From positions 1 to 13,012 of the forward strand of contig JAEUSA010000013.1 of assembly GCA_016788945.1 (NCBI GenBank): a DNA stretch of 13,012 nucleotides, given 5' to 3'. Below, one piece after another: positions 396 to 13,012 of this stretch (its first letter is position 1; each line of letters starts with the position of its first letter). Both the position numbers and the translations under genes were made by a program. The stretch comes from Leptospiraceae bacterium (GTDB lineage: Bacteria > Spirochaetota > Leptospiria > Turneriellales > Turneriellaceae). The notes below the pieces were generated by a model that worked only from the letters and a program-made list of their open reading frames with translations, was not told where the DNA came from and did not search any database.

Positions 396-656
396 TCATG
401 AGCAAGGCCGGCCCGCTTCGGCATTCAGATAACAACGAATTCTCCGCAACTCGTTTTCACTGAGTACCGGCCGGCCCGCTTCGCGCAAACGCTGCTGCAT
501 AGTCTTCAGCACAGCATCCCACTGCTTTTCGCTGAGGCCTGACGGATCAGGCAGAGCATGACAGCCGTTGCAGCGCTCTTCAAAGAGGGTCCTGTTCGGT
601 TCGGGCGCGGCAAACAATGAAGCGGCAAAACAGAGCAGCGTTATTGTGGTCCTCAC
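396..656 (-). CDS. Small exported mono-heme cytochrome c
   Basis: The 86-residue product has an N-terminal signal peptide (residues 1-17, cleavage expected near SLFA-AP) and one CxxCH heme-attachment motif, CNGCH, at residues 29-33. The pattern CHALPDP followed by W47 and M53 matches small class I cytochromes c in which the Met in a 'W..VL..M' helix is the second axial ligand. It should carry heme c in the periplasm and transfer electrons. The short fold is complete, ending after the C-terminal helix (ELRRIRCYL). Two extra cysteines, C75 and C85, could form a disulfide, which is notable beside two thioredoxin genes. The start is GTG at 654-656, overlapping the upstream gene's stop as GTGA, so it is probably translated by coupling as the last gene of the cluster. 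Redox partner unknown. Confidence 0.85.
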   Translation of the reverse strand: MRTTITLLCFAASLFAAPEPNRTLFEERCNGCHALPDPSGLSEKQWDAVLKTMQQRLREAGRPVLSENELRRIRCYLNAEAGRPCS

Positions 657-1198
657 AGCACCCCCAGAATCTGTTCCATTTTCTGTCTTTTATACACTTC
701 AATCATGCGGATTTTCCCCGTACTGTCGATGATCACCACGTACGCCATTGTCGCCCCATAGGTGTTCATGAAACTTTGCGACCGGTCAAGGGCGACGACA
801 ATACCGGTGGAATCATAACCGCCAAAAGTCTTGAGGGTCGCCGCTTCGCCGATGCTCGCCGAAACGTAATCAACCAGAACATAACGGGCATTCGGGTATG
901 CCGGCATGATCGCCTGAACGACTTCATCGGTGTGGCTTGTGCAGACGGGACACCACATCGTAAAATAGATCACGACGCCACTCTTGCCAGAAAGCGCCGT
1001 GGCAAGGGTGAGCGTTGCTCCATCGGTGACCGGCAAGGCAAACTCGGGCGCCGTCTGGCCTACCGTCAGTATACCGTTAGCATTCTTGCTGCGCAAATCG
1101 TCGCCATCGGGTAAGAGATTTGAGCAATGCGCGAGCATCAGCGCCGTAAACAGCACCAAAAAAATCCTTCTTGTTTTTATTCTGTTAACGCATGACAT
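653..1198 (-). CDS. Thioredoxin-fold lipoprotein (TlpA/AhpC-TSA-like), WCPVC motif
   Basis: This 181-residue protein has a charged N-terminus, a hydrophobic stretch and a lipobox-like LAHC with Cys25, so it is probably a lipoprotein facing the periplasm. Residues 44-180 form a thioredoxin/peroxiredoxin-like fold: GQTAPEFALP, then the redox motif TMWCPVC (Cys83, Cys86), then YVVIIDSTGKI. At the position where thioredoxins carry cis-Pro and SCO proteins a His, the sequence is GATMAYVV (residues 148-155), so both are missing. That may alter substrate specificity or reduce oxidoreductase activity. The ATG at 1196-1198 is preceded by AGGAG (complement of 1205-1209) at good spacing. The gene overlaps the barrel gene upstream by 14 bp and the cytochrome gene downstream by 4 bp. 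A role in keeping heme or copper ligands reduced is inferred from context. Confidence 0.85.
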   Translation of the reverse strand: MSCVNRIKTRRIFLVLFTALMLAHCSNLLPDGDDLRSKNANGILTVGQTAPEFALPVTDGATLTLATALSGKSGVVIYFTMWCPVCTSHTDEVVQAIMPAYPNARYVLVDYVSASIGEAATLKTFGGYDSTGIVVALDRSQSFMNTYGATMAYVVIIDSTGKIRMIEVYKRQKMEQILGVL

Positions 1199-2159
1199 AG
1201 TTTACTCCTAAAGAAAATGCATGCGTAGCCGGGAAGTTGCGCTGCAGCCCGGGTTCATGAAGCGCCGGATTATAGCTCAGCGAATATACGAGGTCGCGCT
1301 CGGGTGTTGCCCATGCGAGTGACGCGCCCAATAAATGCCGCTCAAACCCCGTCGTCTTGTCGACGTAGCCATTGATCGTCGCATCAGCCTCATGTAGATA
1401 TGTATAGCTCGAGCTTATGGTGAGACTCGACATTGATTCGGTGAAGTAGGTATAACTGAGCGCCGCCGTGCCGGTGAACCGGTCGCCGAGACGTTTGCGG
1501 TATGGTTCAACGTAGAGACCGTAGTCCCGGTTCACCGGTCTCGCAAAATGTGTGCCGTAGAGCATAGTTAGCGCCAGCGTAAACGGATAGATCGTCTTTT
1601 CGACAATCGCCTTGCCCTCGAGCCGGTAGAAGCCGCGACCCGTGATATCGAAGCTTGACTGCACATTGTCATAAGGCGACACACCGGTGGGCAACGTCAG
1701 CTGCGAAGCGAGATATACCGCAGGGATCACGTCTTGCCATTTGCGCACTCTCCACACGCAGCGAATATTGTCGAACGTCTCATACGTCAGTGAAGCGACG
1801 CTGTCGGCGGGAGCGTTCGTATTCGAGACGAGACCACTGTACTTGTTCGAATTGAACACATAACCCGACGCGAGCGCCGCCTGCCAGCGCGAAGCAAGAC
1901 GAACCGCCACGCCGCCGTTAAGACGATATTGCCTGAGATCTGAATTGGGCGGATCACTCAGATACTTGCCGCCACGGTCAAAATAGCCGTTGTATTTTTC
2001 AAAATCCCCGCTGGCGGCAAAGAGCCACTTGGCCGACTTGGGCATCAACAGCGCACCCGCCGTACCACCACCACAGCATGAACCGGCAAAAACTCTCTGC
2101 GGAAATAGCAGCAGAGCCGCCGGCATGGCGAGAACCATGCCGGATAACCCGATGCGCAT
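1185..2159 (-). CDS. Outer-membrane beta-barrel protein with GSCCGGG mature N-terminus
   Basis: From the ATG at 2157-2159 the product is 324 residues. A clean signal peptide (MRIGLSGMV...RVFA) is followed by GSCCGGG at about residues 26-32. The rest is a series of amphipathic strands ending SLGVNYVMR, as in an outer-membrane barrel (for example WQAALASGYVF, LTISSSYTYL, HLLGASLAWA, DLVYSLSYN). A GTG at 2178-2180 would add seven residues but overlap the upstream gene by 17 bp. The ATG leaves a 4-bp gap and a better signal peptide, so I prefer it, although neither has a strong ribosome site. The vicinal cysteines with a glycine run could bind a metal or be a thiol target of the neighbouring thioredoxins. 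I recognise the barrel class but not a named family, and transport function is unproven. Confidence 0.8.
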   Translation of the reverse strand: MRIGLSGMVLAMPAALLLFPQRVFAGSCCGGGTAGALLMPKSAKWLFAASGDFEKYNGYFDRGGKYLSDPPNSDLRQYRLNGGVAVRLASRWQAALASGYVFNSNKYSGLVSNTNAPADSVASLTYETFDNIRCVWRVRKWQDVIPAVYLASQLTLPTGVSPYDNVQSSFDITGRGFYRLEGKAIVEKTIYPFTLALTMLYGTHFARPVNRDYGLYVEPYRKRLGDRFTGTAALSYTYFTESMSSLTISSSYTYLHEADATINGYVDKTTGFERHLLGASLAWATPERDLVYSLSYNPALHEPGLQRNFPATHAFSLGVNYVMR

Positions 2160-2163
2160 AAGC

Positions 2164-3258
2164 TTATGGTAGGGTCGCACTCAGCGTGCCCGTGCCGCGC
2201 ACAGTACCGTTGACCGTGATTTCAAATGTCAGCGACTTGCCTGAACCCGCGGTGAGTCCCGCGACGCCGCCGATCGCGTAGTGGCCCGTGCCATTGTCAG
2301 TCAGGGTACCCACCCAGCTCGTACCGCCATCAATCGAAAGGCGAATGGACGTCGTTGCACCTATGACTGTCCAGTCTGCACCCATTGCCGGCGTGAGAGT
2401 AAGTCCGTTTGCCAGCGCGGGATGATCCATCATCGACTTGCGCGTCGCAGCAAACACGTTGATCGTGTGGTTTCCGGCAGAACCGGATATCGCATCGACA
2501 AACACAAAATAGGGCCGGTTTGTCGCAGTCATCATGTTGCTGTACTGGTCGGCACTGTTGCTGACAGACACGCGTGCCGTCGCCGAACCACCAACCGTCA
2601 TGGCAATGCGGGTGCCTATTTCACTCATAGCGGTGTTGTTCATGGTCTTCACATACCAGTAGCCGCCGTCTGAACTCATCAGATAATACACGACGGCTGT
2701 GTAGAGCCCACCGCCATTATCTGTCACCGAATCGACTGGAGTCGTGTGCACCATCGAACCCATGTCCATTTCGGGTATGATCTTGGGGTTAAGACCCGCG
2801 ACACCAGCACCGGTATTGTCAGTCACCTTTATCTGGAATGTTGTTTTACCGACGCTATGCGTGGGATTCCCCTGCATGGTAGAAGTGTATTGCACAACGG
2901 CAAGCTTCACCGCAGCAGTCGTTGAACCCGCGCTGTTACTGCCCGTTACGGTGTACGACGTCGCGGCCTGCGTGGTCGTCGGCGTGCCGCTAATCGTGCA
3001 ATTCGCCGTGTCGAGGCTGAGCCCCGTCGGCAACGCGGGCGAGACGCTGCAAGAAGTCACACTGCCGGTAACACTGACACTTTTTGAAATGGCCACATTT
3101 TGGGCCACAGTCAGCGTCTTGGCGCCATAGCTCATGCTTGCGGGGGCAGTGACCACAGCCTTTGCGGCTTCGTCATTTTGCACGCAAGCATTGGTAGTAA
3201 TAGACAGCAATGCAAATAGGAAAGCATTGCGTAACAGTTTTTTATTTTGATTTTGCAT
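2164..3258 (-). CDS. Met-rich lipoprotein with putative Ig domain and YtkA/FixH-like domain
   Basis: The 364-residue product begins with a basic, hydrophobic leader and a relaxed lipobox TTNAC (Cys25). Residues about 40-122 resemble a putative-Ig (He_PIG) repeat, with LPTGLSLDTANCTISGTP and SYTVTGSNSAGS. Residues about 128-230 resemble a YtkA/FixH-type beta-sandwich: K-F-I-V strands, then MDMGSMVH (Met164, Met166, Met169, His171), then GGGLYTAVVYYLMSSDGGYW. A third beta-rich part follows (about 235-364) with another Met/His cluster, KSMMDHP. YtkA/FixH-like domains often lie near copper handling or cytochrome oxidase assembly genes, so metal binding is a reasonable inference. The ATG has AAGGA upstream, within the end of the tlpA gene only 2 bp away, indicating coupled translation. 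It probably works in the periplasm or on a membrane face. Confidence 0.8.
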   Translation of the reverse strand: MQNQNKKLLRNAFLFALLSITTNACVQNDEAAKAVVTAPASMSYGAKTLTVAQNVAISKSVSVTGSVTSCSVSPALPTGLSLDTANCTISGTPTTTQAATSYTVTGSNSAGSTTAAVKLAVVQYTSTMQGNPTHSVGKTTFQIKVTDNTGAGVAGLNPKIIPEMDMGSMVHTTPVDSVTDNGGGLYTAVVYYLMSSDGGYWYVKTMNNTAMSEIGTRIAMTVGGSATARVSVSNSADQYSNMMTATNRPYFVFVDAISGSAGNHTINVFAATRKSMMDHPALANGLTLTPAMGADWTVIGATTSIRLSIDGGTSWVGTLTDNGTGHYAIGGVAGLTAGSGKSLTFEITVNGTVRGTGTLSATLP

Positions 3259-3260
3259 AA

Positions 3261-3743
3261 TTATTCCTTACTATGTTTCAATAAATTTTTGATCTGCAAT
3301 TTCAGATCTTGTTCGGGAAACTCGGAGTAGCCGCTCTGCGACCAGACTACATTACCTTTGCCATCAATTAACACCAGCGATGGCACACCGGAAACGCCGA
3401 GTGCATCGGCAAAGATGGATGCACCATCGAGATAATTGGCAAAACTCACGCCAGTCTTTTCAACCATACGCGCCGCCTGCTTTTCCGGACTGTCGACCGC
3501 TATGCCGACGAAGGTAATTTTTTCACTGCGGTGCACGCGTTGCAGCTCGCGCAGCTCAGCCGCGCAAGGACCACACCATACCGCCCAGAACACCAATACC
3601 AACGGCTTGCCGGCATAACTTGTCAGCTGCGGCGCATTTTTTCCCAACGCGGGTAAATCACGTAACTGAATCTGGTCAGCCGCCATAAGCGTCGCTGATA
3701 GCAGCAACACGGGCAGGCAAAAGCGCATGCGGAAAAAACGCAT
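3261..3743 (-). CDS. TlpA-like periplasmic thiol-disulfide oxidoreductase
   Basis: This is a 160-residue exported thioredoxin. It has a signal peptide (MRFFRMRFCLPVLLLSATLMAA), then the fold with VFWAVWCGPC (active-site Cys57 and Cys60), FVGIAVD and the cis-proline segment GVSGVPSLVLID (Pro121). These are the hallmarks of TlpA/ResA/CcmG-type reductases, which reduce disulfides in apocytochromes c or copper-site proteins outside the cytoplasm. I chose the ATG at 3741-3743 because AAGGAG lies six bases before it and it begins directly at a signal peptide. A longer frame, open to 3827, adds 28 residues unlike a leader. The gene is the first of the five closely spaced minus-strand genes and is 168 bp downstream of the Cys/His-rich ORF. 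With a cytochrome c in the same run, a CcmG-like role is possible. Confidence 0.93.
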   Translation of the reverse strand: MRFFRMRFCLPVLLLSATLMAADQIQLRDLPALGKNAPQLTSYAGKPLVLVFWAVWCGPCAAELRELQRVHRSEKITFVGIAVDSPEKQAARMVEKTGVSFANYLDGASIFADALGVSGVPSLVLIDGKGNVVWSQSGYSEFPEQDLKLQIKNLLKHSKE

Positions 3744-3911
3744 AGTTACTCCTTCAAGATCTTTGTTAGATTGTTTTGCCGGCAGGCGTCGCCGAGTACT
3801 GCGCTCATTCAGGCGCAGATCTGTCACGAAGCGTTACAAAACGTTGAAAACAACAGGCATTGAACCGGGTTCGATCAGCCTGAAGGTGCAGCCGGCAGCA
3901 CGCGCAGAAAG
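3744..3911 (-). promoter_or_regulatory. Leader region of the tlpA gene cluster with hairpin and candidate operator
   Basis: This 168-bp gap before the tlpA-like gene holds three things. There is a strong ribosome site, AAGGAG, just before the ATG. There is a hairpin at 3799-3818 with 6-bp arms (CTGCGC/GCGCAG) and an 8-base loop, without a following T run. There is also an imperfect 17-bp palindrome at 3822-3838, TGTCACGaagCGTTACA, with one mismatch between the arms and the TGT-N11-ACA form common among bacterial operators. A perfect short palindrome, GAACCgGGTTC, lies at 3862-3872. I could not find a convincing -35/-10 pair on the minus strand. A regulated promoter here is therefore inferred from the palindrome and from the gap, which is the longest in the cluster. 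Confidence 0.3.
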
Positions 3912-4304
3912 CTATGAAGGAATATCAGGGGGATCAGAAGAGAGGCCCGAAGGCAAAAACAGATGAGACCAATGCGGCAACGAACTCTGCCGGCGTGGCA
4001 GCAGCAATTCGCTGCCGTAGATAAAAACGAATGCCTCAAACCCCGGAACGCGGGCGTGATCATTGTCATCGCCGGCATCGCAATCGGCATGCGCGCTCAC
4101 CAGACGCACATCGTGGTGGCGCTTTTTGTGCTCATGGCCGCATGGGCAGGGGTTGCCGCGCAGAAATTTTGCCTTGGTGTGCGGGCAAATGCGGTACCTC
4201 GATTTTGTCGCATCGGCGGCAATCGCGGGGACATCGGCAAGCTGGGCCACAAAGAGTGCGAGACCAGCGAGGTGAACGATGCGAAGACAGCCGGCGAACG
4301 TCAC
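3912..4304 (-). CDS. Small secreted Cys/His-rich protein, CopL-like
   Basis: The 130-residue frame starts at the GTG at 4302-4304, only one codon after an in-frame stop. It has a plausible signal peptide (residues 1-31, ending AIAADA). A Cys/His-rich stretch follows: Cys40, His42, Cys53, Cys55, His57, His59, His63, His64, His72 and Cys75 (RICPHTKAKF, CPCGHEHKKRHH). The tail has a basic patch and a proline-rich end, SSDPPDIPS. This plan, signal plus Cys/His cluster plus short Pro-rich tail, is like CopL and related small copper-response proteins encoded beside copper genes. I infer metal binding in the periplasm. No Shine-Dalgarno is visible before the GTG, and the upstream AT-rich patch (4331-4360) has no clear promoter. 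Longer overlapping plus-strand frames look like shadows with no recognisable features. Confidence 0.55.
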   Translation of the reverse strand: MTFAGCLRIVHLAGLALFVAQLADVPAIAADATKSRYRICPHTKAKFLRGNPCPCGHEHKKRHHDVRLVSAHADCDAGDDNDHARVPGFEAFVFIYGSELLLPRRQSSLPHWSHLFLPSGLSSDPPDIPS

Positions 4305-4371: not shown

Positions 4372-5022
4372 TCACCAGTCAGCGAGCGAACCACCCTTTT
4401 CAAACCAGTGCGGATAATGTTTGCGAAACGTGGCGACCATCAGCTCGAACGGCATATCGGCAAAGGTACCGTGGTCGAATAAATACTCCATATGCTTTTT
4501 GCCATCCGCCGAAAATTCGTGGAATACCGAGTCGTTGCGCCCGTCGAAATCGAGCGGTTTGATTTTGAAGAAACGACACAGGCGTTCGTTGAACGCAGGC
4601 GTGGCCTTTACCCATTTACCTTCGAGGAAAAGATCGGTATAGCCATGGAACGCGAAATAATCGCCGCCGAGCATTTCGAGCATTTTCGGCGTTGCGAGAT
4701 GGTTGGTGACATCGGCAAAACCGAGACGCGCCGGAATACCCTGCGAACGCGCGGCAGCCGCGAGCAGAATGGCTTTCGGGATGCAAAAACTGCGCTTCGC
4801 CTTAAGGCAATAACTTGCCTTGAAGACCTCGCGCGTGAAATGTTCGACCATCATGTCATACATGACGAGATCGCGCACCGCGTAATAGAGAGCCACCGCT
4901 TTCTCGCGCTGGTTACTCAGCCCGCGGGTGACCTCGGCTGCATACGCGATCACCTCGGGGTTATCAGAATCTATGGTGTCGGTGGGTAAGAGGTATTTCG
5001 TATCGACAGCCGGCTCAGCCAT
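4372..5022 (-). CDS. Transglutaminase-like cysteine protein
   Basis: From the ATG at 5020-5022 the product is 216 residues with no signal peptide, so it is probably cytoplasmic. The core is a transglutaminase-like (papain-fold) domain: helix AVALYYAVRDLV, then AKRSFCIPKAILLAAAARSQGIPARLGF with nucleophile candidate Cys80, then FHGYTDLFLEGKWVKATPAFN with His126. The usual third residue, Asp in a W...DPT context, is replaced here by KATP. My recollection is that a WVKATPAFN segment recurs in this subfamily, together with the following LDFDGRNDSVFHEF and HMEYLFDHGTFAD, so it is probably not a local defect. Substrate unknown; protease or amidase chemistry is as likely as crosslinking. This start has GAGG at good spacing and overlaps the MarR gene by 8 bp. 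A longer start at 5052 would overlap more. Confidence 0.85.
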   Translation of the reverse strand: MAEPAVDTKYLLPTDTIDSDNPEVIAYAAEVTRGLSNQREKAVALYYAVRDLVMYDMMVEHFTREVFKASYCLKAKRSFCIPKAILLAAAARSQGIPARLGFADVTNHLATPKMLEMLGGDYFAFHGYTDLFLEGKWVKATPAFNERLCRFFKIKPLDFDGRNDSVFHEFSADGKKHMEYLFDHGTFADMPFELMVATFRKHYPHWFEKGGSLADW

Positions 5023-5476
5023 GCAATGCCTCGGCGGAGAGTTTTGCGTCATTCAACAAATGCCGCAGCTCCCGCGTCTTCACCGGTGTGAGCGCTTTAG
5101 CGAGCGCGCGTTGCGCACGAAACCAGTAGGGATAGATCTCTTTCATTTTTTTAACGCCCTTAGCGGTGATGCTCACTCGCCGCTTATTGCCTGGTTCGGC
5201 CTTGCGTATTTCAATCAGCTTATCGTCTTCGAGTATCTTCAAACTGCGCGTCAGCGTCGTACGGTCGACCATCGCGAGGCGCGCGATGTCGGTAATGCTG
5301 TGGTCTTCGCGTGAGGCAATCGCCATGAGAATCGTAAACTGCGTCACCTTGACGCCGGTGGGTTTAAGTGCCTCGTCGTAATACTGCGTCACCGCGCGCG
5401 AAGTGCGGCGCAGGTTGAAGTTCAGACACACTGCGCCGGCAGAAAGCCAACTGAGTCCTTTTTCAGATCCGCTCAT
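5015..5476 (-). CDS. MarR-family transcriptional regulator
   Basis: The 153-residue product has the MarR winged helix-turn-helix layout. An N-terminal dimerisation helix (AVTQYYDEALKPTGVKVTQFTILMAIA) is followed by the HTH SITDIARLAMVDRTTLTRSLKILEDDKLI (residues 60-88), a basic wing (IRKAEPGNKRRVSIT), and C-terminal helices that complete the dimer interface. It should bind a short palindrome and respond to a small ligand. The ATG at 5474-5476 overlaps the thiolase stop by 14 bp, and the gene's own stop overlaps the transglutaminase-like gene, so the three are probably one transcript. A GTG or ATG further upstream would deepen the overlap without adding a recognisable domain. Autoregulation is suggested by an 18-bp imperfect palindrome before the thiolase gene. 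Cys17 lies in the dimerisation region and could sense oxidants, but that is speculation. Confidence 0.93.
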   Translation of the reverse strand: MSGSEKGLSWLSAGAVCLNFNLRRTSRAVTQYYDEALKPTGVKVTQFTILMAIASREDHSITDIARLAMVDRTTLTRSLKILEDDKLIEIRKAEPGNKRRVSITAKGVKKMKEIYPYWFRAQRALAKALTPVKTRELRHLLNDAKLSAEALHG

Positions 5477-6842
5477 AGATGACAGCGCCTGCGACGCCAC
5501 CATGCGCACAGGCCGTCGTCAATACGCGTTTTGCATTCTTGTCGACAACGAAATCCATGGCGGCGTTGAGTGCCAGCCTAACACCCGTTGCGCCGAATGG
5601 ATGGCCAGTGGCGATGGAACCCCCGTGCGGGTTGATTTTTTTTGCGTCGAATTGTTTCTCCCAATCCCATCCACCTGAACGCGACTTGATCTCTTCGAGC
5701 GCCGCAATCGCCGTCGCGGCAAAGGCCTCGTGAATCTCGATATAGTCCATGTCGGTGATTTGGTATCCTAACTCATCCAGTGCCGCGAGAGTCGCCTCTG
5801 CCTGCCCAAGGCCCATCAGATTGGGATGCACACCTTTCATGCGATAACCGCTCACCTTCATGACCGGCACGAGACCTAATTCCTTCGCTTTTTCCGGAGT
5901 GGTGATAATCACCCCCGCCGCGCCATCAGAACGCGGCGATGCATTGAAGATGCTGACTGTTGGGCCAGGAAGGTCCCGGTCGGCACCGGGCACGATGGCC
6001 GTCTTTGTACCGACCGTTGGGCCATGACTCTGCTTGAGGTCTTTGCCATACCGTTCTTTGAACTGCTCAAACTTGAACTGGGGATTATCAAACAGCAGCA
6101 TCGCACGACCCATGCGGTCAGGGTTTTCGACGAGGCCCTTTCGCAATACCACTGCCTCGTCCCAATCGAGAACCCCGCCCTCTTCATCTTGCATCGGAAT
6201 AATATAATCTTTGTACAGCCCGGCCGATGAAGCGTCGTATGCGCGCTTGAAGCTCTGGTAGGCAACCTTGTCATTGATTTCGCGCGACAGATGGTAATTT
6301 TGCGACAGAATCTCGGCAGTTGCCTGCATACCATAACTGTTCTCGCCGTCGCCAAGGCCGTCTTCCAGCGTATCGCGCAATTCAACGCCATCAGGCAGCT
6401 TGTCGGGTAACAGGGCTTTGAGCTTATCGAGTGTCGCCGTTTTTTTATCGAGGCGCGCGCCTTTCACGATCATCGGCATCGACGTCTGCGATTCTTCGCC
6501 GAGCACGAGCACGACAGAGGCTTCACCTAACACAATGCGGCGTGTCGCTTCGGCAATCGCATCCATGCCCGAAACGCAGTTATTGGCGACCGTGAGCGCT
6601 GGTATAGCGTCGTCGAGCCCGATCAGATTGGCAATCACCCGCGCCGAATTGGGGGCATTGGCGAAACCTTCGCCGACGATCACGGTATCAATGGCTGCTT
6701 TGGGTATTTTGTACTTTTCGATCATTTTTTCGGCAACGAGTTTACCAAGGTGGTGTGCTGGATATTTTGCCAGCGCCTTGCCGATCTGTGCAAATGGAGT
6801 GCGCAGCGGGGCTGCGACAACGACGGTTTTTTCGACTTTCAT
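5463..6842 (-). CDS. Thiolase (acetyl-CoA C-acyltransferase)
   Basis: This 459-residue thiolase carries all the expected catalytic parts: nucleophile Cys89 in NNCVSGMDA, His371 in HEAFA, His414 in GHPFGATG and the acid/base Cys445 in CAHGG. It condenses or cleaves acyl-CoA and acetyl-CoA in fatty-acid oxidation or related carbon metabolism. It is longer than the roughly 390-residue biosynthetic thiolases. The extra length lies in the loop region around residues 130-200 and 250-300, closer in size to the FadI-type beta-oxidation enzymes. The ATG at 6840-6842 follows GGGAGG at five bases; the longer open frame to 7025 adds 61 residues that do not look like thiolase. It is first in an overlapping run with the MarR and transglutaminase-like genes. 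Exact chain-length specificity cannot be read from sequence. Confidence 0.95.
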   Translation of the reverse strand: MKVEKTVVVAAPLRTPFAQIGKALAKYPAHHLGKLVAEKMIEKYKIPKAAIDTVIVGEGFANAPNSARVIANLIGLDDAIPALTVANNCVSGMDAIAEATRRIVLGEASVVLVLGEESQTSMPMIVKGARLDKKTATLDKLKALLPDKLPDGVELRDTLEDGLGDGENSYGMQATAEILSQNYHLSREINDKVAYQSFKRAYDASSAGLYKDYIIPMQDEEGGVLDWDEAVVLRKGLVENPDRMGRAMLLFDNPQFKFEQFKERYGKDLKQSHGPTVGTKTAIVPGADRDLPGPTVSIFNASPRSDGAAGVIITTPEKAKELGLVPVMKVSGYRMKGVHPNLMGLGQAEATLAALDELGYQITDMDYIEIHEAFAATAIAALEEIKSRSGGWDWEKQFDAKKINPHGGSIATGHPFGATGVRLALNAAMDFVVDKNAKRVLTTACAHGGVAGAVIYERI

Positions 6843-8253: not shown

Positions 8254-9495
8254 CTATGCATACGCCGCTTCGCGCTTTAACTGTTGCGGCGGAACGAACG
8301 TCGCAGGCTTTGCGCCTAACGGCCCATCAACCATACTGCGCTGCAACCGGTCACCTGCGAGTACCGCGAGGTTGGTCGCCCCCGGCAATGCGCGCCGCAG
8401 TGTTTCCAGCGCGAACACCATAGGCGTTGTCAAAGCCGCAGCGTACTTGAGCGGCGTATTGGGTAACCCTAAATCGTCGCCAGCGCGATCGCCTAACACG
8501 AGCCGCGTGAAGCCGCTGCGCAGTTGTATCTCAAGCCATGCCGCCGCTTTTTCGAGCGGGGTTTCGGCCCTTTCTAACGGCACATGCATCAACGCCTGCC
8601 CTAAGAGCCGCGAATCTTCGTCGGCGCCCGGCTGCGTCACGCCCGCCAGCCATGCCATACGCGTGCCATCCGCTTCGTTGACGGGCAACAGATTTTCATC
8701 GATGCCCATCAGGTAGCCGATATAGCGCCACAGGTGCATTACACCGAGCGATTCGTCGTCAGCGATCTGCATACCTAAAACACGCAACCCGCCAAGATAA
8801 ACTGCGGAAAATAGCACATTAGTCGCCACGAGGTCTGCCTGATTGATCGGTAAACCCCAATCGTCGTGCCGCCATTTTGGCGAGCGGTCGAGCATCAGGC
8901 GTACGTGCGCGTGCATCATACGCACCTTGACCGCAGCTTTAAACCCAGCTGCACCGCGTTCAAGCCCTCCTGTGCGCGTGACGTCATAACTGAACTTTGC
9001 CGTTTCCGCAAGGCGGCGTGAGGCTTTGTACTCGAGCGCACCTGTGAAGGCAATCGGCTTGTTTGCCGCGGCCGATCGATAGCCACCCATCAGGCTCACG
9101 CACGAAAGCACGTACTCACCGAGTGGGCCAGAACGTTGTGTCATCCGCGCGCCCGCGTCGAGCAGGCGCTTGTCAACCCACGACGGCACACTGCCGACCT
9201 CTGCCATCAGCTCACGCAACTCTTGCGGATGGCCGTCGCTGTCTTTGCCCGACAATGCCTCATCGAGCATCTGCATCGAGCGCTGCATGCCGATCTCGTG
9301 GAACTTTGCCGCGAGCCGGTCGGCCACGGCGTCTCCCACCCAAAGATATTCGCCATAACGCTGAATTTCATCGGGCGTCACTTTACGTTTGATCAGCAGC
9401 TTTTCCGTTAATGCGAGAAAAAAATCTTTGTTATCGGCGGGGTCGCGAAAGCGGCTTGGCGGCATGCGCAGCTGGGCTTGGGGTTTGGCGCTCAT
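8254..9495 (-). CDS. MpaB/latex-clearing-type (DUF2236) heme oxygenase-like protein
   Basis: The 413-residue, mostly helical product matches the DUF2236 family, which includes rubber oxygenase Lcp and the MpaB-type enzymes. Landmarks are FHEIGMQRSMQMLDEAL, the core GAAGFKAAVKVRMMHAHVRLML with the likely heme-ligand His195, then INQADLVATNVLFSA and LWRYIGYLMGIDENLLPV. Family members are b-type heme proteins, some cleaving polyisoprene double bonds; the substrate here is unknown. There is no Tat or Sec signal, unlike secreted Lcp, so a cytoplasmic or peripheral location is expected. I chose the ATG at 9493-9495 because GGGG stands seven bases before it; an ATG two codons earlier (9499-9501) and a GTG (9508-9510) are alternatives. 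It is divergent from the DUF2007 gene across about 100 bp, and I found no convincing promoter for it there. Confidence 0.9.
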   Translation of the reverse strand: MSAKPQAQLRMPPSRFRDPADNKDFFLALTEKLLIKRKVTPDEIQRYGEYLWVGDAVADRLAAKFHEIGMQRSMQMLDEALSGKDSDGHPQELRELMAEVGSVPSWVDKRLLDAGARMTQRSGPLGEYVLSCVSLMGGYRSAAANKPIAFTGALEYKASRRLAETAKFSYDVTRTGGLERGAAGFKAAVKVRMMHAHVRLMLDRSPKWRHDDWGLPINQADLVATNVLFSAVYLGGLRVLGMQIADDESLGVMHLWRYIGYLMGIDENLLPVNEADGTRMAWLAGVTQPGADEDSRLLGQALMHVPLERAETPLEKAAAWLEIQLRSGFTRLVLGDRAGDDLGLPNTPLKYAAALTTPMVFALETLRRALPGATNLAVLAGDRLQRSMVDGPLGAKPATFVPPQQLKREAAYA

Positions 9496-9556
9496 GGCCA
9501 TGCCCCACACATCTTGAACGATGCGTCAAGTTTGTTTTCGCCCAGCCCCCATTAGA

Positions 9557-10169: not shown

Positions 10170-10209
10170 ACTACAGAGACGACTTAGTCGTCTCTGTAGT
10201 GCGTTTTTT
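10170..10209 (+). terminator. Strong intrinsic terminator
   Basis: A perfect 14-bp stem (10170-10183 with 10187-10200) closes on the three-base loop TTA, and after GCG comes a run of six T (10204-10209). It lies 5 bp after the stop of the DUF2007 gene and faces the + strand. The last two T are also part of the stop codon (complement of 10208-10210) of the convergent RRM gene. On the minus strand the hairpin is followed by TTGAGT rather than a T run, so it should be a weaker stop for that gene. Confidence 0.92.
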
Positions 10210-10555
10210 ACCAGCGGTCGTTATAGCCGCCGCGGTTGCCACCACGGCCGCCGCCACGGTTGCCACCGTTGCCGCCGCGATAACCACCACCGCCGCCGCC
10301 ACCGCTGCGCTCTTCACGCGGGCGCGCTTCGTTGACCACGATCGCACGGTTATTGAGCTCACGGCCATTCATCGCAGCAATTGCTTTGATGCCGTCTGCT
10401 TTGTTTGCCATTTCGACAAAGGCAAAGCCCTTCGCGCGGCCGGTTTCACGGTCCATAATCATCTTCGCCGAATTTACGGTTCCGAATTCTGAGAACGCCT
10501 GTACTAACTGGTCATCTGTAACCGAGTACGCGAGGTTTCCTACATAAATATTCAT
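10208..10555 (-). CDS. RNA-binding protein: single RRM plus RGG tail
   Basis: The 115-residue product is one RNA-recognition motif followed by a glycine/arginine-rich tail. RNP2 is IYVGNL (residues 3-8) and RNP1 is KGFAFVEM (42-49), with the usual aromatic and basic RNA contacts. The RRM ends near residue 80 (AIVVNEARPREE). Residues 84-115 are built of G, R, N and Y (GYRGGNGGNRGGGRGG), as in the small cold-inducible glycine-rich proteins of cyanobacteria and other bacteria. It should bind single-stranded RNA in the cytoplasm, probably as a chaperone or regulator. The ATG has GGAG eight bases upstream and a good promoter about 30 bp further on. The DNA of the tail is a short imperfect repeat (about 10227-10305), which could vary in length between strains. 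Confidence 0.95.
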   Translation of the reverse strand: MNIYVGNLAYSVTDDQLVQAFSEFGTVNSAKMIMDRETGRAKGFAFVEMANKADGIKAIAAMNGRELNNRAIVVNEARPREERSGGGGGGGYRGGNGGNRGGGRGGNRGGYNDRW

Positions 10556-10740: not shown

Positions 10741-11184
10741 GTGGAGATCGCTGTCAATCGTAAGGCACGTTTCAATTACGAAATCATCGAAGATTTCGAG
10801 GCCGGTATTGCGCTCACCGGCACCGAGGTAAAATCGCTCAGACAGAAAAAAGTCAATATATCTGACGGTTACGTGCTCATTCGCGGCAACCGCGTGCAGC
10901 TAATTAACTGCCGCATCGAACCCTATGAGCAGGGCAATATCATGAACCATGATCCGCTCAGGCCGCGCAACCTGCTGCTCAAACAAAAAGAAATCGATCG
11001 CATGCGCGGCAAGATGCACGAGCGCGGATATGCGCTGCTACCGCTGAAAATGTACTTCAAGGGCCGCTACGTGAAACTGTTGATCGGCCTCGGTAAGGGC
11101 AAAAAAACGCACGACAAACGTTCTTCGATACGCGAAAAAGACATACGCCGCGACACAGAGCGCGAGATGAAGAGCTATAAGTAA
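10741..11184 (+). CDS. smpB: SsrA-binding protein SmpB
   Basis: The 147-residue product is a full-length SmpB. It shows the oligonucleotide-binding barrel signatures YEIIEDFEAGIALTGTEVKSLR (residues 13-34) and NHDPLRPRNLLLKQKEI (about 69-85), then LKMYFKGRYVKLLIGLGKGKK. It ends in the basic tail KKTHDKRSSIREKDIRRD that enters the mRNA channel. SmpB carries tmRNA to stalled ribosomes for trans-translation in the cytoplasm. The start is GTG at 10741; an in-frame TAA at 10729 excludes a longer protein, and no Shine-Dalgarno precedes it. The tmRNA gene itself is not in the window. The stop overlaps the next gene's ATG by one base (TAATG), so the two genes are probably co-translated although their functions look unrelated. 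Confidence 0.97.
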   Translation: MEIAVNRKARFNYEIIEDFEAGIALTGTEVKSLRQKKVNISDGYVLIRGNRVQLINCRIEPYEQGNIMNHDPLRPRNLLLKQKEIDRMRGKMHERGYALLPLKMYFKGRYVKLLIGLGKGKKTHDKRSSIREKDIRRDTEREMKSYK

Positions 11185-12338
11185 TGTTTCGCCGACTGCT
11201 CAAAATTTTCGGTGTCGTTTTGCTCGCCACCATGGGTGGTATGGTGTTGCAGGGCTGGCAGGCTTTCGGCAAAAAATCTTCGGGTGAGCGCCTCGCGCGC
11301 AGCGAAAAGTCGGCGCAATGGCTGCGCGGATCTTTCGAGAACCCGCAACCACTCAAAAACGATTTTGCCGGTTCGATCTCCGCGATGTTCAAGACCGGCA
11401 AGTTCACCGCGCCAACAGGTGTAATTCCCGTCGAACGTTCTGACGGCGCGCAGTACAAAACACAACCTGAAAGCGGTCTCCGCGTGACCTGGTTCGGCCA
11501 CTCGTCAACGCTCGTCGAGATCGATGGCATGCGTGTTTTGACCGATCCGGTTTTTGCTGAGCGCGTCTCACCGTTTACGTGGCTCGGGCCCAAACGCTGG
11601 TACGCACCGCCCGTTGCATTTGCTGATTTGCCGCCGATCGATGCCGTAGTCATCTCGCACGATCACTACGATCATCTCGATATGCACTCGGTGAAGCTGT
11701 TGCTCTCAGGCAAGGCGATATTCGTCGTACCGCTCGGCATCGGTGCGCACCTTGAATATTGGGGAGTGCCCGCAGCGCGCATCGTGGAGCTCGAATGGTG
11801 GCAAGAAACCAAAATCGGCTCACTGCGTTTTGTGCTCACACCCGCGCGGCATGCTTCGGGACGCGTGCTCGTCGACTTCAACAAAAAACTGTGGGGCGGT
11901 TTTGCGCTGATCGGCAATAAGCACCGCGTCTATTATTCGGGCGACACGGGGCTTTTTCCCGCGATGAAAGATATCGGGCGGCGCCTCGGCCCGTTTGATC
12001 TGACAATGATTGAAGTGGGCCAATACAACCGCAGCTGGCCCGACTGGCATATCGGCCCCGAGCAGGCTGTCAAAGCGCACCTGTGGGTGAACGGCCGCAC
12101 AATGCTGCCGGTCCATTGGGGGTTATTCGTGCTCGCGGCACATAACTGGACAGAACCAGTCGAACGCGTTATCACGGAGGCAAAAAAGCTGAAAGTGCAA
12201 GTGGCTACGCCGAAGCCCGGCAAAAGTTTTGAACCAGCGGCGACGAGAGATCACACGCTTGTCGAACAATGGTGGCCACAAATCGAATGGCAGGGCGCGG
12301 CCGAGCATCCGATCGTATCTACTCAGGTGGATCAATAA
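11184..12338 (+). CDS. MBL-fold metallo-hydrolase, NAPE-PLD-like
   Basis: The 384-residue product has an N-terminal hydrophobic segment (residues 8-24), either an uncleaved anchor or a signal peptide. A metallo-beta-lactamase fold follows: VTWFGHSSTLVEIDG (101-115), the metal motif HDHYDH (His159, His161, Asp163, His164), His223 in TPARHASGR, Asp254 in YYSGDTG, and His311 in PVHWG. This order and the LTDPVFAERVSPF segment match the group that includes N-acyl-phosphatidylethanolamine phospholipase D and related bacterial lipid or phosphodiester hydrolases. All expected di-zinc ligands are present, so it should be active. The substrate is not readable; a membrane phospholipid is plausible given the anchor. 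It starts in a TAATG overlap with smpB, without a strong ribosome site of its own, and its stop overlaps the convergent SPASM gene by 7 bp. Confidence 0.93.
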   Translation: MFRRLLKIFGVVLLATMGGMVLQGWQAFGKKSSGERLARSEKSAQWLRGSFENPQPLKNDFAGSISAMFKTGKFTAPTGVIPVERSDGAQYKTQPESGLRVTWFGHSSTLVEIDGMRVLTDPVFAERVSPFTWLGPKRWYAPPVAFADLPPIDAVVISHDHYDHLDMHSVKLLLSGKAIFVVPLGIGAHLEYWGVPAARIVELEWWQETKIGSLRFVLTPARHASGRVLVDFNKKLWGGFALIGNKHRVYYSGDTGLFPAMKDIGRRLGPFDLTMIEVGQYNRSWPDWHIGPEQAVKAHLWVNGRTMLPVHWGLFVLAAHNWTEPVERVITEAKKLKVQVATPKPGKSFEPAATRDHTLVEQWWPQIEWQGAAEHPIVSTQVDQ

Positions 12339-13012
12339 TTAAACGTAAAATATTCGTCGCATTGCGCACACGGCAGATGGCCCGGATATTTTTCCCGGTA
12401 ATTCAATACGAAATCTTGCCCCTGCGCGGCCCATAAAGCAGAAAGCGAATCTTTTGCGAGGTTGCCGCGTGCCGAGGGCTTTGCCGGGTCAACGGTTTGT
12501 TTGCAGAATGCGACATCCCCATTGGCACGAATAAACAAATCACGGCGCAAATGCCAGCACGAATAGCGCTCGAGCGGCGTCATATCAGAGACACGACGCT
12601 CTGGCATGAGCCCCGCATAGCGGTTATATTTCTGAAACAGAAAACTACCGCCAAGCTCTTCGGCGAGCGCATAGAGCGCATCAATTTCGGCCTCATTTTC
12701 TTCTACCTTAAAGGCCTGCAGAAAAAGTTGCTCCTGCGGATTTTTACCCGCCTGCGCCAGCGCCTGCGCTAAATTGCGAAAATTGACCTTTATCTTTTCG
12801 AGCGTCGCCTGAGGTGCTCCAGAATATTCTGCGAACTTTGTCAGGGAATTCAACAGAACAATAATCCGCAACTTGGCGGCTTGCGCGTGCGCTGCAAGAG
12901 GCAAAATTTTATCGAGATGGATTCCGTTGGTTTCGATGAAGACCAAACGCGTGTCGGCACAGGCAAGCAGTTCTTGTAGATACTCAGGCGCATCGGGATG
13001 CTCCAGTGGTTC
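12332..13012 (-). CDS. Radical-SAM/SPASM protein, C-terminal part (spiro-SPASM-like)
   Basis: The frame is open from the stop at 12332-12334 to the right edge, giving the last 226 residues; the N-terminus, including the CxxxCxxC cluster site, lies outside the window. The visible part starts EPLEHPDAPEYL, matching the 'GEP..HPD' strand of radical-SAM barrels, then RLVFIETNGIHL. The C-terminal half has SPASM-type cysteines: YSCWHLRRDLFIRANGDVAFCKQT, then GNLAKDSLSALW, then HLPCAQCDEYFTFNY. SPASM domains bind extra iron-sulfur clusters in enzymes that modify peptides or small substrates. The layout resembles the spiro-SPASM proteins, which I recall as largely restricted to spirochaetes; their reaction is unknown. 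An ATG at 12944-12946 lies inside the barrel and is not the start. Confidence 0.88.
   Translation of the reverse strand, partial: EPLEHPDAPEYLQELLACADTRLVFIETNGIHLDKILPLAAHAQAAKLRIIVLLNSLTKFAEYSGAPQATLEKIKVNFRNLAQALAQAGKNPQEQLFLQAFKVEENEAEIDALYALAEELGGSFLFQKYNRYAGLMPERRVSDMTPLERYSCWHLRRDLFIRANGDVAFCKQTVDPAKPSARGNLAKDSLSALWAAQGQDFVLNYREKYPGHLPCAQCDEYFTFNY

Follow-up and report, generated by a model that had tools for sequence, protein, structure and literature searches.

A candidate leader-controlled copper-handling operon with a cysteine-led outer-membrane barrel in Turneriella and its relatives

Contig JAEUSA010000013.1 (13,012 nucleotides; hereafter the window) belongs to a 3.7-Mb genome bin of a Leptospiraceae bacterium (assembly GCA_016788945.1; G000). 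It carries six consecutive minus-strand open reading frames (ORFs; positions 396–4304), whose products all look exported when their N-termini are judged by eye, in agreement with an earlier sequence-only reading of this DNA. Our best reading, to which we give a probability of about 0.6, is that they form a copper-regulated operon for copper handling at the outer membrane and in the periplasm, in which the first gene would act as a switch for the five genes behind it. This gene probably encodes a nascent-chain copper-sensing leader of the CutF/CruR type, rather than a working part of the pathway. Copper is the likely metal of the cassette, since relatives of the leader precede MbnP-MbnH genes and a TonB receptor gene, and a Csp1-type gene adjoins the core of the cassette in two relatives. 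The features of the window are listed in Table 1.

The predicted leader (130 amino acids, aa) has a hydrophobic N-terminus (by eye), the motifs C40-x-H-T and C53-P-C55-G, a further cysteine (C75) and the tail DPPDIPS, with the Pro-Pro pair (PP) at residues 125–126. The C40-x-H-T and C53-P-C-G motifs, C75 and the final PP are invariant in all nine aligned relatives. The window leader is 52% and 50% identical to its counterparts in loci L006 and L007, respectively, and 31% identical to that of genome G012. A profile of nine rows gave 12 matches in 10 of 392 genomes, from which two weak matches in two genomes were dropped; a terminal PP and the first position in a cassette were found for each of the ten credible leaders. 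The gene that follows them encodes (i) the TlpA of the present cassette (three cases), (ii) MbnP (four), (iii) a lone barrel starting with SCGxxVCP (two) or (iv) a TonB receptor (one). Leader relatives occur in seven of the 18 genomes of the order. When ORFs of at least 90 aa were collected mechanically from the larger loci, a PP within the last nine residues was present in 17 of 182; 13 of these were leaders or leader-like, which leaves four among the other 169 ORFs. Several of these tails were already known when the count was made, and overlap removed the L039 and L042 leaders from it.

According to the available text of PMC9973294, CutF-like leaders were selected as proteins below 150 aa with a signal peptide and a PP among their last 15 residues, encoded next to a gene on the same strand. 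The window leader is shorter than 150 aa, has its PP in the last 15 residues and is followed on the same strand, after 168 nt (limit, 1000 nt), by the next gene. The hydrophobic stretch at its N-terminus, judged by eye, would suit a signal peptide. The window leader resembles CutF (cutFOG, Rhodobacter capsulatus) and CruR (bp2923-bfrG, Bordetella pertussis) in length, hydrophobic N-terminus, Cys motif, C-terminal Pro-Pro and first place in a gene set, and the gap behind it, 60–168 nt in the three Turneriella cassettes, is also like theirs. As far as the available parts of the two studies go, CutF raises the production of the downstream multicopper oxidase with copper (PMC9973294), and CruR reads copper through CXXC and RAPP, its operon, which includes a TonB receptor gene, being turned down by copper (PMC9426467). 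CruR relatives lead operons that include MbnPH-like and AhpC/TSA genes (PMC9426467, same limits); the partners in such DUF2946 operons (MbnPH-like, TonB, AhpC/TSA) are of the same kinds as those of the leader family described here. However, the window leader has no DUF2946 match and has CxHT...CPCG...C instead of CxxxC/CXXC, and the distance from CPC to the last PP, 71–75 aa in all seven family members measured (whose PP starts within the last six residues), compares with 45 residues in CutF and CruR. The first gene had earlier been described as a CopL-like member of the pathway; no family model matched it above cut-off, and a cis-acting copper-sensing leader is more likely.

MbnP and MbnH, which we take to be the "metallo-mystery pair", stand behind relatives of the leader in four genomes (G011, G012, G013 and G016). 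In G012 (two contigs, 4.4 Mb) the order MarR-transglutaminase-leader is the same as in the window, and is followed by genes for MbnP (TIGR04052, E = 1.5e-73), MbnH (TIGR04039, 1.8e-135) and a PF13557 barrel. The window cluster, at the same syntenic site, lacks MbnP and MbnH and has TlpA, a YtkA-type lipoprotein and a thioredoxin in their place. Since the transglutaminase anchor is 83% identical in the window and G012 while the leaders are only 31% identical, and the closer leaders of L006 and L007 lie at other sites, leader and cassette appear to be co-inherited and to have been swapped at this single site. Among the 18 genomes of the order, MbnP was detected in seven and the barrel with the CCGGG motif in five, never both in one genome. 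MbnP was not found in G000, whose three matches to the MbnH model are below cut-off and lie on other contigs. Locus L040 of G013 (1799–3547, minus strand) encodes a 582-aa protein with two MbnP domains; behind it come a di-haem peroxidase and, at the edge of the contig, a third MbnP match. In locus L090 of G014 (1315–3354, plus strand) a leader-like ORF (CPKC...CPCC...PPPRR tail) directly precedes a TonB receptor gene (Plug, 9.6e-15), which is the arrangement of CruR-BfrG.

A second link to copper is provided by a gene for Csp1 (TIGR04401, 8.4e-38) next to the L008 core; L009 has a similar gene, recognised by eye, and the window has none. In both L008 and L009 this gene forms a divergent pair with a gene for a barrel bearing CSVCG (L008, 693–2119, plus strand; L009, 3118–4555, minus strand), the partner being a Cys-rich protein (Csp1 in L008). 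Small Cys-bearing ORFs ending in FKPPK plus one to three residues precede this pair in L008 and L009, and also the core in L008; those before the pair have two or three residues after FKPPK and look exported. Cys-led barrels likewise stand between leader and MbnP in G006, G009 and G010; the order in G006 and G010 is leader (PPS tail), a barrel starting with CGGExCP, MbnP and MbnH. Outside the phylum, plasmids of Candidatus Manganitrophus (Nitrospirota; L048 and L049) carry a 91-residue ORF ending in RAPPL, a His/Cys ORF, a barrel with SCGSANC and TlpA. The L048 set lies near NikR, chromate-resistance and HupE/UreJ genes, and the L049 barrel is annotated as two overlapping pieces.

The gene order of the window is conserved in relatives. 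The same six genes in the same order were identified in G017 (L006) and G015 (L007), so that the complete set is present in three of the 18 genomes of the order, and the four-gene core (TlpA, YtkA-type lipoprotein, CCGGG barrel and WCPVC thioredoxin) in five, the two further ones being G003 (L008) and G002 (L009). In all five, the order lipoprotein-barrel-WCPVC thioredoxin is kept behind a TlpA gene, and so is the 14-nt overlap between the barrel and thioredoxin genes. With the likely start codons (ATG at 3743 for TlpA, preferred because AAGGAG precedes it, and ATG at 2159 for the barrel), the spacings are 168 nt (leader-TlpA), 2 nt (TlpA-lipoprotein), 4 nt (lipoprotein-barrel), −14 nt (barrel-thioredoxin) and −4 nt (thioredoxin-cytochrome). 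The earlier description of the last five genes as joined by gaps of 4 bp or less or by overlaps is therefore accurate, but such close spacing does not imply a fixed stoichiometry. When each of the six genes was compared with L006 and with L007, differences fell most often on codon position 3 in all 12 cases. Since the flanks of the unit in G015 and G017 differ from those in the window (three different flanks in all), it appears to move or to be re-sited whole.

The barrel was found in five of 18 genomes of the order and five of 296 of the phylum; a profile search gave six of 392 genomes, the sixth probably by chance. The WCPVC thioredoxin was found in six of the 18, the sixth match and two second matches being weak and generic. 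Matches to the lipoprotein occur in 10 of 18, those outside the five barrel genomes being confined to residues 10–194, mostly the Ig domain. In the loci fetched, only the cores of the three Turneriella genomes are accompanied by the cytochrome and the CPCG leader.

The barrel, identified as such in the sequence-only reading, has a predicted fold of the FapF/COG4313 type: its model has 15 strand segments, read as 12 strands (predicted local distance difference test, pLDDT, 67), and in a Foldseek search with it FapF entries took ranks 1–18 (best E = 8e-12) and 4rl8 (COG4313) rank 30 (1.4e-7). The 12-stranded COG4313/FapF channels belong to PF13557, whereas the window barrel has no Pfam match, PF13557 included, at E up to 1, and differs further in a Cys-Cys at the mature N-terminus and in its gene company. 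Cysteines 35, 36 and 141 (numbered from the GTG at 2180) are invariant, and the model would place Cys141 in a turn that faces the periplasm, to which side Cys35-Cys36 would also belong. The N-terminus of COG4313 (about 14 residues) tucks into the barrel lumen from the periplasmic side, according to the available part of PMC4493636.

In the YtkA-type domain of the lipoprotein, M164, M166, H171 and M194 are invariant. It resembles YtkA/CtaK copper lipoproteins in being a lipoprotein with conserved Met/His, and its orthologue in L008 matches YtkA (PF13115) at 5.6e-7 (30.6 bits; cut-off 25.9), that in L009 scoring just below (24.5). It differs from them in an additional C-terminal region and, in Turneriella, in a He_PIG Ig domain, not found in the two distant orthologues. 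The window protein itself gave no PF13115 match at E up to 1 and contains 4.1% Met; its earlier description as a Met-rich YtkA/FixH-like lipoprotein thus holds for the domain, by way of the L008 orthologue, but only mildly for the Met content. Both thioredoxins, recognised earlier, were confirmed by AhpC-TSA/Redoxin matches above the Pfam cut-offs and by their WCGPC and WCPVC motifs (for TlpA, the longer ORF 3261–3827 was searched); the NCBIfam ResA and DsbE models score below cut-off, and ResA and other thioredoxins are among the relatives of the WCPVC protein in the PDB. The mini cytochrome has CXXCH in all three sequences, with Pfam matches below cut-off, and an invariant M53 as possible distal ligand; two extra cysteines (C75 and C85) are also kept in all three.

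Conservation, the motifs, the association with known copper families and the MbnP-MbnH set at the shared site of one relative are observed; copper binding, the switch, and the order and direction of transfer are the parts of the best reading that we infer. The Cys/His motif of the leader would read copper during leader export, and its Pro-Pro tail would make the ribosome hesitate or proceed, setting the expression of the next five genes. The Cys-Cys N-terminus of the barrel and its third invariant Cys, on the same face, may bind Cu(I) at the periplasmic mouth, from where the YtkA-type lipoprotein would take copper over through Met/His. The two dedicated thioredoxins would keep the cysteines of the barrel reduced, and in Turneriella the small cytochrome c might serve as electron partner. 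We lean towards acquisition under scarcity as the direction, given the TonB receptor and MbnP-MbnH genes that stand behind related leaders. A more specific version is tentative and, we think, doubtful: the barrel would be a thiol-gated outer-membrane Cu(I) channel with its Cys N-terminus in the mouth, reduced by the two dedicated thioredoxins and passing copper to the lipoprotein, and a spirochaetal family of nascent-chain copper sensors would switch this set as well as other, interchangeable copper cassettes. The trans-envelope pathway for a thiol-reactive metal proposed earlier thus survives as a conserved set with a probable copper link (neighbours of the leader relatives, Csp1, and the tie of the YtkA domain to copper in Bacillus in the available part of PMC13344008), probably without the leader as a working member. 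Its suggested delivery of metal to a cytochrome found no support, and in two of five genomes no mini cytochrome was detected next to the core. The exact combination, for which no named system had been known, was not recognised among the open-licence papers listed either, as judged by titles, the openings of abstracts and selected passages, but the available text of PMC9426467 describes leader-led operons for copper in which AhpC/TSA and MbnPH-like genes occur.

Several results weigh against a copper-responsive leader operon. The window leader has no match above cut-off in Pfam or NCBIfam, and DUF2946 (PF11162) does not match it at E up to 1, nor the leaders of L037 and L038 (E up to 0.5) and of L042, L067, L048, L008 and L009 (E up to 1). 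A gap of 67 nt separates the leader from the end of the transglutaminase gene, which lies upstream in the same orientation, so that the leader may share a transcript rather than be its first gene. The CutF mechanism requires a hairpin over the next ribosome-binding site (PMC9973294, available text), and no stem-loop covering the Shine-Dalgarno sequence (SD) of the next gene was found in the window gap. A 6-bp hairpin (CTGCGC...GCGCAG) can be made out by eye, yet the gap as a whole shows no excess stability (z = 0.02; 0.14 on repeat). Among 11 folded leader gaps (those of L039, L042, L049, L067, L068 and L090 were outside the set), z was −3.7 or lower in five (L009, −7.3; L040, −7.2; L007, −6.3; L041, −5.0; L038, −3.8) and higher in six (L006, −2.3; L008 first, −2.3; L037, −1.4; L048, −0.9; L008 second, −0.35; window, 0.02); repeats gave −5.8 (L007), −5.3 (L041) and −2.4 (L006), and one of 240 random stretches reached −4 or lower. 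The L041 stem spans SD and ATG, and the strong stem of L007 leaves the SD free. The test of a CutF-type switch by its hairpin is thus partly failed. A mechanism of the CruR type would not need such a hairpin, because it acts by Rho-dependent termination (162-nt gap; PMC9426467, available text). Further points concern the relatives: an eighth leader-like ORF measured (L040, 4821–5189) lacks CPC; the MbnP cassette of G009 (L065), of the same order as those of G006 and G010, has a leader-like ORF without PP; the leaders of G006, G010, the L008/L009 family and Manganitrophus may not be homologous to the window leader; the contig of L009 ends upstream of the core; and the mutual exclusion of MbnP and the CCGGG barrel is weak (P = 0.054, kinship ignored). 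His-only CutF-like leaders precede HupE/UreJ genes, implicated in nickel/cobalt, in the available text of PMC9973294. Finally, the models are of low confidence, with pLDDT 60 for the lipoprotein and below 50 at the N-terminus of the barrel.

If the leader induced on excess copper, barrel and reductants might instead export or buffer periplasmic Cu(I). Such detoxification, which we consider unlikely but to be taken seriously, would agree with the rise of multicopper oxidase behind CutF when copper is present (PMC9973294, available text) and with a Csp1 beside the core that could store excess copper, but RND pumps, P-type ATPases and multicopper oxidases are missing among the identified cassette genes, and relatives of the leader stand before MbnP-MbnH and a TonB receptor gene, the CruR TonB operon being turned down by copper (PMC9426467, available text). 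In another, rather improbable reading, the first protein would persist in the periplasm as a copper chaperone or buffer, and a conventional transcription factor, for instance the MarR close by, would regulate the operon. The protein is Cys/His-rich and looks exported, and MarR and transglutaminase genes lie just upstream on the same strand; however, this pair is not beside the cassette within about 6 kb upstream in L006 and L007, and the terminal PP and first-gene position of all ten credible relatives fit a leader better.

Proteins like TlpA and ResA have a role in cytochrome c maturation, and the set could maintain envelope disulfides or cytochrome c in general, or handle another thiol-seeking metal, its copper neighbours being coincidental. 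Some such leaders may sense Ni/Co (PMC9973294, available text), and the Manganitrophus SCGSANC barrel-TlpA set has the metal genes named above nearby; we still hold this to be improbable, as in this order four of ten relatives of the leader are followed by MbnP, annotated as copper-binding, and the core has a Csp1 gene as neighbour. In the alternative that we rate lowest, the set would serve a haem-copper oxidase by building its CuA site, with the YtkA domain acting as CtaK and TlpA as reductant. At low copper, cytochrome caa3 of Bacillus subtilis benefits from CtaK (YtkA) and from the YtkA domain that YcnJ carries, presumably at its CuA site (PMC13344008, available part), and COX2 is present in all five genomes with the cassette. 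However, COX2 also occurs in eight of 13 without it (13 of 18 in total; Sco1, 17 of 18), and an outer-membrane barrel has no evident place in this process. A dedicated CuA set is unlikely because Sco is at the oxidase locus: COX2 on contig C169 of G000 has a Sco1 match (25.9 bits, over cut-off) at a distance of about 0.6 kb, and there are two further Sco1 loci.

Table 1. Features of the window, with the evidence for each assignment
Feature	Position	Strand	Basis or remark
Mini c-type cytochrome, CNGCH	396–656	-	alignment; DHC match below cut-off; only in three Turneriella cassettes
Thioredoxin-fold probable lipoprotein, WCPVC	653–1198	-	Redoxin 6.1e-13, alignment
Outer-membrane barrel	1185–2159	-	predicted fold; mature N-terminus probably GSCCGGG
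Lipoprotein, He_PIG Ig domain and YtkA-type domain	2164–3258	-	He_PIG 7.5e-11, alignment
TlpA/ResA-like thioredoxin, WCGPC	3261–3743	-	Redoxin 7.3e-18, AhpC-TSA 2.1e-14
Leader-TlpA gap, 168 nt, proposed regulatory region	3744–3911	-	position
Leader ORF, 130 aa, proposed CutF/CruR-type nascent-chain copper sensor	3912–4304	-	motifs, alignment
Transglutaminase-like gene and MarR regulator	4372–5509	-	flank, synteny anchor common to G012; outside cassette
ORF, 125 aa	6995–7372	+	no Pfam match at E 0.01
ORF, 230 aa	7504–8196	+	no Pfam match at E 0.01
MPAB/Lcp oxygenase-type protein	8254–9510	-	
RRM protein with Gly-rich tail	10208–10555	-	
SmpB	10741–11184	+	
Metallo-beta-lactamase-fold hydrolase	11184–12338	+	
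SPASM domain protein	12332–12946	-	

To our knowledge, the passage of copper across the outer membrane outside TonB receptors is poorly understood. If the proposed reading is true, leader-led cassettes that pair a Cys-led barrel with different periplasmic copper modules would be candidates for copper-specific barrels. It would also extend nascent-chain copper sensing in Spirochaetota, a phylum in which CutF-like proteins are scarce according to the available text of PMC9973294, and a leader in front would give genes of unassigned role a copper label.

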